A stretch of 64,000 nt of DNA, from positions 124,001-188,000 of the forward strand of contig JACRNY010000001.1 of the NCBI GenBank assembly GCA_016214695.1, read 5' to 3'. The notes beneath the pieces were generated by a model. That model was not told the DNA's origin. It did not search any database and worked only from the letters and a program-made list of their open reading frames with translations. The translations under genes and the position numbers were made by a program. This stretch comes from Nitrosomonadales bacterium. GTDB lineage: Bacteria; Pseudomonadota; Gammaproteobacteria; Burkholderiales; Gallionellaceae. Positions 56,981 to 59,845 of the stretch are shown here, one piece after another (within the stretch, counting starts at the first letter, position 1; each line of letters starts with the position of its first letter).

Positions 56981-57634
56981 ATGTCGCAGGCCGTCCTCTT
57001 CGATCTTGACGGCACCTTCGCCGATACCGCCCCCGATCTGGGGGCCGCACTCAACCATGTGCGGGCGCTGCACGGCAGGCCGCCATTACCCATTGCAACG
57101 ATCCGGCCGCAGGCCTCGCATGGCTCGCGCGGATTGCTGAAGCTGGGACTGGATGCCGAGCCGGAAGATGCGAACTACGATGCGATGCGCGATGCCTTCC
57201 TGCAACACTACGAAGAGCACATCTGCGACCGCACCGTGCTGTTCCCGAGCATGGCTGCCCTGGTATCGGAGCTGGAGCGGCACGAGATCCCCTGGGGCAT
57301 CGTCACCAACAAACCGCACCGCTACACCGTGCCGCTGATGGAACGGCTCGGCTACGCCAAACGCGCGGCATGCCTGGTGAGCGGCGACACCTGCGCCCGT
57401 GCCAAACCGCACCCGATGCCATTGCTGCATGCTGCCGAACTGATAGGCATCGCGCCGGAACGCTGCCTCTATCTGGGCGACGACCTGCGCGACATGGAAG
57501 CGGCACAGGCAGCCGGCATGACCGGCATCATCGCCGCCTACGGCTACATCGATCCGCAGGCCGACCTCGGCAGCTGGCCCTCCAGCGGCAGCGTGCCGAC
57601 TCCTTTGGCCCTGCTGCGTTACATCCAGAGCTGA
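56981..57634 (+). CDS. gph: Phosphoglycolate phosphatase (HAD family)
   Basis: The 217-residue HAD hydrolase has motif I VLFDLDGTFADTAPDL, the threonine motif IVTNKPHRYTVPL, the lysine in CARAKPHPMPLLHAAE and motif IV YLGDDLRDMEAAQAAG. The short form matches Gph/MupP-type enzymes. Because it sits next to ubiG, an alternative is the MupP-like N-acetylmuramic acid 6-phosphate phosphatase, which has the same neighbourhood in Pseudomonas; sequence by eye does not decide. It is one base downstream of ubiG. Confidence 0.85.
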   Translation: MSQAVLFDLDGTFADTAPDLGAALNHVRALHGRPPLPIATIRPQASHGSRGLLKLGLDAEPEDANYDAMRDAFLQHYEEHICDRTVLFPSMAALVSELERHEIPWGIVTNKPHRYTVPLMERLGYAKRAACLVSGDTCARAKPHPMPLLHAAELIGIAPERCLYLGDDLRDMEAAQAAGMTGIIAAYGYIDPQADLGSWPSSGSVPTPLALLRYIQS

Positions 57635-57680: not shown

Positions 57681-59060
57681 ATGAACGAAGGATCGAACGG
57701 GGAGAACATCCCCCCCATTCCCTCGCAGGACGGTATCCAGGAGATCTTGCACAAGGTCATCATCGCCCATCAACAGGCGCTGGCCCTGCTGCAACAGACC
57801 GAGGCGGCCTACGGCCGTCTGGTTCCGCACCAGCTGCTCAACCTGCTGGAAGCAAAGAGCATCGTGGACGTGAAGCTCGGCGACCAGGTCGAGCGCAAGA
57901 TGACCATCATGTTCTCGGACATCCGCGACTTCACCCCGCTGTCGGAATCGATGACCCCGGCGGAGAACTTCGAGTTCATCAACTCCTATCTCAGCCAGAT
58001 GGAACCGGTCATCAGCCGCCATCACGGCATCATCGACAAATACATCGGCGACGCCATCATGGCCCTTTTCGAAAGAGGCGCCGACGAAGCGGTGAGCGGC
58101 GCCATCGCCATGCTGGAGCGCCTGAGCTACTACAACGCCGGACGCGAACGGGCAGGCTACGCGCCGGTACAGATCGGCATCGGCCTCAATACCGGCATGG
58201 TGATGATAGGCACGGTGGGCGGCATCAACCGCATGGACAGTACGGTGATCGGCGATGCGGTGAACCTCACCGCGCGCCTGGAAGAAGCGACCAAGACCTA
58301 TCACTCGCCGCTCATCATCAGCCAGAACACGCTGTATGACCTGACCGATGCGGGCAAATACGACATCCGCTTCCTCGACCGCATCCGCGTGAAGGGCAAG
58401 TCGCAGCCGCTCTCCATCTACGAGGTGTTCGACAACAACCCGGCAGAGTTGCGCGAGAGCAAACGGCAGGGACTGGCACTTTTCGAAAAAGCGGTCGCCT
58501 ATTACCACATGCAGGACATCGTCAAGGCGGTCCCGCTGCTCAAACGATGCATCGAGATCGCCCCGGAGGACTATCCCGCGCTCATCTATCTGGAGCGCTG
58601 CCACGCATTTCAGGCCAGCGGTCAGCATCTGGGCACCGGAGAATTGCAGACCAGCCTGTCCTGGAAGGAAGAGCTGCACACCGGCTTGCCGGAGGTCGAC
58701 AACGCCAATCGCATCCTGATGTATCACATCAACACGCTCACCACCAGGATCGCGCAGGACGACTGCCGCGATTTTGCCGATATCTTTCCCATCCTCCACC
58801 AGCATGCACAGCACATCTTCCCCGTCGAGGTGAAACTGATGCGCGAGCATGCCTATCCCTTCGCCGAAGGGCATATCCAGGAACACCAGCGTTTCGTCGA
58901 GAACTTTTGCGGACTGGAAAGAAAGGCCGGGAGCTCGTCGGAAGACCCGCGCTACCTCGCCTTCCGCACAGTGCTGCTGCTGCTCGACTGGTTCGCCTCG
59001 CATGCCACCAAGGCCGACCGCCACTTCGCACGCTACCTGCAGAACAAAAAAACCGGCTAG
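57681..59060 (+). CDS. Class III adenylate cyclase fused to an altered hemerythrin domain
   Basis: The 459-residue protein starts after a strong GGAGGAGC. After an N-terminal helical region (1-~70) comes a class III cyclase domain (~72-250) with metal Asp in FSDIRDFT, DKYIGDAIMA (Lys and second Asp), and VNLTARLE (Asn/Arg), plus Thr seven before the Asn; Lys/Thr favours ATP. A helical, TPR-like linker is followed by a hemerythrin-like domain (~315-455). By motif alignment the Fe1 ligands (two His in GHIQEH, one in SHATKAD) and bridging Glu and Asp are present, but both Fe2 histidines are replaced (NANR for DxQH; IF for HF). It may link oxygen, iron or redox to cAMP. Confidence 0.85.
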   Translation: MNEGSNGENIPPIPSQDGIQEILHKVIIAHQQALALLQQTEAAYGRLVPHQLLNLLEAKSIVDVKLGDQVERKMTIMFSDIRDFTPLSESMTPAENFEFINSYLSQMEPVISRHHGIIDKYIGDAIMALFERGADEAVSGAIAMLERLSYYNAGRERAGYAPVQIGIGLNTGMVMIGTVGGINRMDSTVIGDAVNLTARLEEATKTYHSPLIISQNTLYDLTDAGKYDIRFLDRIRVKGKSQPLSIYEVFDNNPAELRESKRQGLALFEKAVAYYHMQDIVKAVPLLKRCIEIAPEDYPALIYLERCHAFQASGQHLGTGELQTSLSWKEELHTGLPEVDNANRILMYHINTLTTRIAQDDCRDFADIFPILHQHAQHIFPVEVKLMREHAYPFAEGHIQEHQRFVENFCGLERKAGSSSEDPRYLAFRTVLLLLDWFASHATKADRHFARYLQNKKTG

Positions 59061-59113: not shown

Positions 59114-59481
59114 GGGGGCGACCTGGCTTCGACGTGGGTTGCAAAGCAGCGCAGGGCATACCGAGGACCCGCCACCTCGTAAATCAGCTGGAAAACCAAT
59201 AGTCGCAAACGACGAAAAGTACGCTCTGGCCGCCTAAGGTCAGACCTCACACCCTGCTGTCCGTGGAGGGGCTCGATAGCGCAAGCTTGAGATGAGTGAG
59301 GTCATTTACACGGAATCGTGTCGTGCAGGGTCACTTTGTACGAAGCTAAAACCAAGGTGACTCGTCCAGTAGCAGCCTGTCGGCTGGCGTCTGCCGGATA
59401 AAATCAAATAACCAGACTAAGTATGTAGAACTGTCTGTAGAGGGCTCGCGGACGGGGGTTCAATTCCCCCCGCCTCCACCA
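59114..59481 (+). ncRNA. ssrA: Transfer-messenger RNA
   Basis: The 368-nt RNA begins GGGGGCGACCTGGCTTCGAC and ends CGCCTCCACCA, with the 7-bp acceptor stem pairing GGGGGCG and CGCCTCC. The tag reading frame starts GCAAACGACGAAAAG at 59205 and encodes ANDEKYALAA before a stop at 59237. tmRNA rescues stalled ribosomes and tags products for degradation. A long hairpin directly follows the 3' end. Confidence 0.97.
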
Positions 59482-59523
59482 ACAAATGAAAACGACACCC
59501 TTGCGGTGTCGTTTTCATTTGTT
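59481..59523 (+). terminator. Terminator hairpin after tmRNA
   Basis: AACAAATGAAAACGACACC and its exact reverse complement enclose a CTTGC loop (19-bp arms). The core ACGACACC-CTTGC-GGTGTCGT is followed by TTTCATTTGTT. Confidence 0.85.
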
Positions 59524-59845
59524 GAATCGAGATTGTGCGGGAATTGAAACCCCGTCCGGCACGGACGGGGGGCGGAGGACGTAAAGCAAACAGCACCTGC
59601 GTGCTGTTTGTAGTCCGGAGCGGCATTCGCATGCAGGCGAATGCGCGGCCTGCAAGGCCAATTCCCCCACATTAAAGACACCCTTGCGGTGTCGTTTTTA
59701 TTTGTTGAGTTGAAATTGAGCGGGAATTGCATCCCCGTCCGGCACGGACGGGGGGCAAAGGGCGTCAAGCGAACAGTACCTGCGTGCTGTTCGTAGCCCG
59801 GAGCGGCATTCGCATGCAGGCGAATGCGCGGCCTGCAAGGCCACC
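59482..59845. repeat. Tandem duplication downstream of tmRNA (183-bp period)
   Basis: Two similar modules each contain a CACCCTTGCGGTGTCG hairpin, CCCCGTCCGGCACGGACGGG, an AACAG...CTGTT hairpin, and CGGCATTCGCATGCAGGCGA ATGCGCGGCCTGCAAGGCCA. Module 2 begins at a second AATTCCCCC resembling the tmRNA 3' end. No gene is supported in either module. Confidence 0.85.

Follow-up and report, generated by a model that had tools for sequence, protein, structure and literature searches.

An adenylate cyclase from Gallionellaceae carries a hemerythrin domain without the Fe2 histidines and may be a one-metal sensor

We analysed a 64,000-nucleotide stretch of DNA (the window) from a Nitrosomonadales bacterium of the Gallionellaceae, and found that it encodes a cyclase-coupled hemerythrin lacking both histidines of the Fe2 site. 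We propose that this hemerythrin has been cut down to its Fe1 half, probably leaving a mononuclear 3-His/2-carboxylate site with no O2 binding at Fe2, a reading to which we assign a probability of about 0.5. Its parts are not equally firm: the normal Fe2 site has very probably been lost, a metal is likely to be retained at Fe1, and the odds that the state of this metal controls the cyclase are about even. The gene, its domains and its neighbours are:

57681..59060, + strand: whole gene, class III adenylate cyclase, TPR and bacteriohemerythrin, 459 aa, ATG start, intact ORF
57726..57812, + strand: N-terminal helix, residues 16-44, running into the cyclase domain (AlphaFold model)
57894..58406, + strand: class III nucleotide cyclase domain, residues 72-242 (PF00211, Guanylate_cyc, E 3.6e-18)
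58443..58619, + strand: TPR-like helical linker, residues about 255-313 (TPR_1, E 2.8e-4, under the Pfam cut-off; three helices in the model)
58656..59042, + strand: hemerythrin four-helix bundle, residues 326-454 (TIGR02481, 61.5 bits; AF2 model)
56981-57634: gph-like HAD phosphatase, the neighbour before the cyclase gene
59114-59481: tmRNA gene, the downstream neighbour

A UbiG-like methyltransferase precedes the phosphatase at this locus. The tmRNA gene lies directly downstream in most orthologous loci that extend far enough, and the orthology of the cyclase–hemerythrin genes is therefore secure. Past the tmRNA gene (about 59480-59830) the reverse-strand translation shows roughly 60 codons duplicated imperfectly in tandem, possibly a relic of an integration site.

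The cyclase domain scores 66.3 bits in a profile search with Guanylate_cyc PF00211 (cut-off 21.9). Its closest solved structure is CyaB (3r5g, E 1.6e-27), and its fold matches are 3r5g, CyaC and OaPAC, with 4yus among the matching structures. All six catalytic residues are present, and each is conserved in 101/101 proteins of the family described below:

57918..57920, + strand: D80, first metal Asp
58038..58052, + strand: K120 (adenine) to D124 (second metal Asp)
58242..58277, + strand: T188 (adenine), N195 and R199 (transition state)

T188 is the same Thr as in 3r5g. CyaB of P. aeruginosa and CyaC of Spirulina share this catalytic domain and its D/K/D/T/N/R set but, unlike the window protein, were solved as proteins without a hemerythrin sensor. 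The active site, as read from these residues, is complete and of the adenylate type, and the protein is predicted to be a soluble class III adenylate cyclase that makes cAMP. This agrees with the sequence-only reading of the gene, which had placed the hemerythrin domain on a cAMP-making domain.

The hemerythrin domain exceeds the cut-off of TIGR02481 (61.5 against 51.75 bits) and falls under those of NF033749 (63 against 84) and PF01814 (16.1 against 25.3 bits). Its AlphaFold model (pLDDT 93.3) is an up-down four-helix bundle closest to DcrH-Hr (TM 0.81, rmsd 2.1, 134 columns), and the fold is thus predicted to be intact. We took the ligand columns from an alignment to DcrH-Hr and McHr, which has few gaps, and none in the ligand-bearing helices; the model agrees with its register. 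The ligand positions are:

58707..58709, + strand: N343, replacing Fe2 ligand H25 (alignment)
58815..58817, + strand: I379, replacing Fe2 ligand H54 (alignment)
58827..58829, + strand: E383, bridging carboxylate E58, kept (98/101 relatives)
58872..58874, + strand: H398, Fe1 ligand H73, kept (98/101 relatives)
58884..58886, + strand: H402, Fe1 ligand H77, kept (101/101 relatives)
59001..59003, + strand: H441, Fe1 ligand H101, kept (100/101 relatives, one gap)
59016..59018, + strand: D446, bridging carboxylate D106, kept (101/101 relatives)

Structure prediction and alignment to hemerythrin, the check proposed with the sequence-only reading, bear out its description of the site: DxQH reads DNAN and HFxxEE reads IFPVEV, with both Fe2 histidines gone, and the full Fe1 set of three histidines is in place along with both bridging carboxylates. 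Compared with a five-His O2-binding hemerythrin, the protein thus lacks H25 and H54 and has H73, H77, H101, E58 and D106. The second, non-ligand Glu of HFxxEE is gone as well (V384), where the orthologues L002 and L003 read LFPxEE. Chance or an assembly artefact was ruled out as the source of the double loss, because L002 and L003, from two other genomes, share it (88% identical, with DNAN and LFPxEE common to both), and because the pattern at the site is phylogenetically structured over 101 homologues.

The sequence-only reading had allowed that neighbouring histidines, in HAQH and MYHIN, might fill the Fe2 site and restore a normal di-iron centre. As far as this could be tested it found no support, positions 53 and 31 being unconserved and the association at position 50 non-significant. 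We rejected two neighbouring histidines as Fe2 substitutes: H378, at position 53, where 12/101 proteins have His, and H349, at position 31, where relatives mostly have R/Q/K. By helix periodicity, both would lie off the metal face. Two other histidines stand out:

58803..58805, + strand: H375 (position 50), the sole nearby His enriched in proteins without H54
59022..59024, + strand: H448, two residues past D106 (motif DRH), near-invariant (His in 100/101) and family-specific

Position 50 is His in 6/6 sequences that have lost both Fe2 histidines and in 39/59 without H54, against 4/42 with H54. With phylogenetic correction the association of H375 with H54 loss was not significant, either by LRT (p = 0.26) or in independent pairs. 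H375 precedes I379 by one turn and, from helix geometry, would be too far by that turn to rebuild a normal Fe2 site. H448, whose position is K in DcrH and L in McHr, is possibly a domain-interface or second-shell residue.

It is conceivable, nevertheless, that a second metal is bound more weakly by Asn, water or H375, counter to the one-metal reading. Fe2 would then be held by the bridging carboxylates together with N343, water and perhaps H375, in an asymmetric di-metal site that oxidises but forms no O2 adduct. Both bridging carboxylates are indeed retained, position 50 is His in all the double-loss proteins, Asn, a possible weak ligand, occupies H25 in 5/6 of them, H25 itself is still present in most relatives without H54, and some replacements of H54 (Cys, Asp) could ligate. 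However, I379 is unable to do so, as are the L/I/M/V found at this position in relatives, and H375 has both the non-significant association and the inferred one-turn offset against it. We regard an altered di-metal site as unlikely.

We compared 101 cyclase–TPR–hemerythrin proteins, which come mostly from Gallionellaceae (Sideroxydans, Gallionella) and, going by their names, from Rhodocyclales and some other groups, on a tree built from the cyclase and TPR columns only, leaving out the hemerythrin domain. All seven ligands are kept in only 34/101, the whole Fe1/bridging set in 94/101. Of the Fe2 ligands, 91 proteins have H25 and only 42 have H54. The minimum number of amino-acid changes on the tree was 20 for H54, 5 for H25 and 0-2 for the Fe1 and bridging ligands, with a median of 26 for hemerythrin columns, so that H54 changes at a rate near that of an average column of the domain. 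In the crown clade (52 proteins, tree length 7.2) only 2 proteins keep H54, the other 50 having L, S, I, C, T, M, Y or Q, and E58, H73, H77 and D106 are each present in 52/52 and H101 in 51/52 (one gap). Of 126 columns, no more than 13 are invariant in this clade, and they include all five Fe1/bridging columns (hypergeometric p 5e-6). H54 is absent from nearly all orthologues; the loss of H25 is recent and local. H25 is kept by 53/59 relatives without H54. On the alignment and tree, losses at the Fe2 positions, most of all at H54, recur throughout the family and the Fe1 half is nearly invariant. Repeated erosion of the Fe2 half with a fixed Fe1 half suggests a one-metal sensor.

Other patterns also occur in the family. 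A reverse partial loss is seen in the Gallionella-group proteins L072, L073, L078 and L084, where H25 is Leu (motif DRQL) and H54 is kept. The Rugosibacter homologues L105 and L106 have a deeper change of the site, with Ala at H54 and Gln at bridging E58, and the orthologue L022 is also without H101. In some genomes two cyclase–TPR–hemerythrin genes lie next to each other in divergent orientation (L032, L033, L025/L026; G016:C163, G020:C24), one with five canonical histidines and the other without H54.

The dN/dS of the hemerythrin domain is about 0.2 in the window clade, compared with 0.02-0.05 for the cyclase, which points to purifying selection on the hemerythrin domain that is looser than on the cyclase. 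Since the hemerythrin domain evolves faster than the cyclase, some relaxation is likely. The Fe2 losses might be the first step of a general relaxation, the domain being a decaying module that holds no metal and serves in structure or dimerisation. The recurrence of these losses, the faster evolution of the domain, the lack of H101 in L022 and the Gln at E58 in L105/L106 would all fit. Decay, however, should strike all seven ligands, and across these lineages (tree length 7.2) the Fe1 and bridging ones show essentially no change. We consider this explanation unlikely.

The window protein groups with L002 and L003 (SH-aLRT 96, cyclase/TPR tree). L006, a neighbour of the window clade, keeps H25; H54 was therefore lost first and H25 second. 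Grouping L049 with the window clade was rejected (AU test, p 0.0013), whereas grouping L012 with it was not rejected (p 0.435). The double loss, by these tree comparisons, arose independently at least twice, in the window clade and in L049, and possibly three or four times, counting L012 and L035. Four independent double losses, which we had considered, were reduced to at least two, as L012 may belong with the window clade.

How unusual is the loss among other hemerythrins? In the 13 other hemerythrin domains retrieved by search from the same genome, H25 is present in 13/13 and H54 in 12, with Gln in one, and none (0/13) is missing both Fe2 histidines. Among 45 distinct domains, counting the window's, that were sampled from its genome and related ones, 41 have the full ligand set; the sample is skewed to the highest-scoring domains. 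Two of the genome's hemerythrin genes adjoin each other, the second with Gln at H54 (L207/L210, G000:C2:206768-207513). Of bacterial hemerythrins, 18% were reported to have altered ligands, with helix C and single-domain proteins accounting for most of the alterations (Bailly et al. 2008, PMC2556348). These alterations share substituted iron ligands with the window family, but lie mostly on the Fe1 side in single-domain proteins, whereas the losses described here are in helices A and B, on the Fe2 side, and in a fusion (PMC2556348). The novelty expected by the sequence-only reading thus has to be narrowed: altered hemerythrin ligands were already published (PMC2556348), and what is new is the Fe2-specific, recurrent ligand loss in a cyclase–hemerythrin fusion. 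A search of the openly available literature for hemerythrin with adenylate or adenylyl cyclase found no account of such a fusion among the titles listed, and one on hemerythrins with missing iron ligands found nothing. The available portions of two reviews of hemerythrin sensors and architectures (PMC9388753, PMC4919030) make no mention of sensors lacking Fe2 or of hemerythrin fused to an adenylate cyclase.

Zn or Mn could occupy a conserved 3-His site just as well, counter to the Fe reading, and the domain would then be a mononuclear metal-level sensor by analogy with CZB, a helical bundle with a 3-His/1-Cys Zn site that regulates diguanylate cyclases (PMC8846402). CZB gives a published helical-bundle precedent (3 His + 1 Cys; PMC8846402), and the 3-His/2-carboxylate set is retained here. 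However, the paralogous domains are canonical di-iron hemerythrins by sequence, and the host family, Gallionellaceae, is known for iron oxidation (PMC3770913). A Zn or Mn site thus appears quite improbable.

The best sequence and fold match, DcrH-Hr of a D. vulgaris chemoreceptor (2avk/2awc/3waq), is likewise a C-terminal sensor hemerythrin but has all five histidines, a crystallographic di-iron site and MCP output. V. cholerae Bhr-DGC and Ferrovum Bhr-HD-GYP (PMC9388753) are c-di-GMP enzymes regulated by hemerythrin; like the window protein they join a hemerythrin domain to a cyclic-nucleotide enzyme, with redox control, and Ferrovum is an iron oxidizer too, like the window's host family. These two proteins differ from ours in having an N-terminal hemerythrin and c-di-GMP rather than cAMP as output, and a complete ligand set is reported for Bhr-HD-GYP. 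The same review lists conserved ligands as a feature of characterised hemerythrin sensors, and has the characterised full-length enzymes responding to redox change, not ligand binding. The hemerythrin-like domains of P1B-5 ATPases that it describes also have a non-canonical ligand motif but, unlike the window domain, are changed in helix C (HxE) and keep the Fe2 histidines.

Taken as a one-metal sensor, the window protein might work as follows. Its hemerythrin domain would bind a single metal, Fe(II) being the likeliest, in the 3-His/2-carboxylate site. In hemerythrin O2 binds at Fe2, and because this iron would be missing, the usual reversible O2 binding would be impossible. Instead, the bundle would change with the redox state or metal occupancy of this one site, and the TPR linker would pass the change on to the cyclase dimer, thereby setting the cAMP output for Crp-type regulators; two Crp-family matches are encoded in the genome. 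In a family of iron oxidizers, a labile ferrous site may plausibly report Fe(II) or Fe(II) oxidation. Only tentatively do we extend this to the broader proposal that a hemerythrin lineage repeatedly dropped the O2-binding Fe2 and became an Fe(II) (or redox/NO) sensor that has a mononuclear 3-His/2-carboxylate site and sets cAMP in iron-oxidizing bacteria.

If the Fe1 half works alone, these proteins would be a natural mutational series with five, four and three histidines in one architecture, in which the role of each hemerythrin iron in signalling could be asked. A sensor without the O2-binding iron, if real, would also allow a direct test of redox against ligand-binding responses in hemerythrin enzymes, the distinction drawn in PMC9388753. 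For the Gallionellaceae, it would mean a cAMP-linked sensor of iron or redox state.
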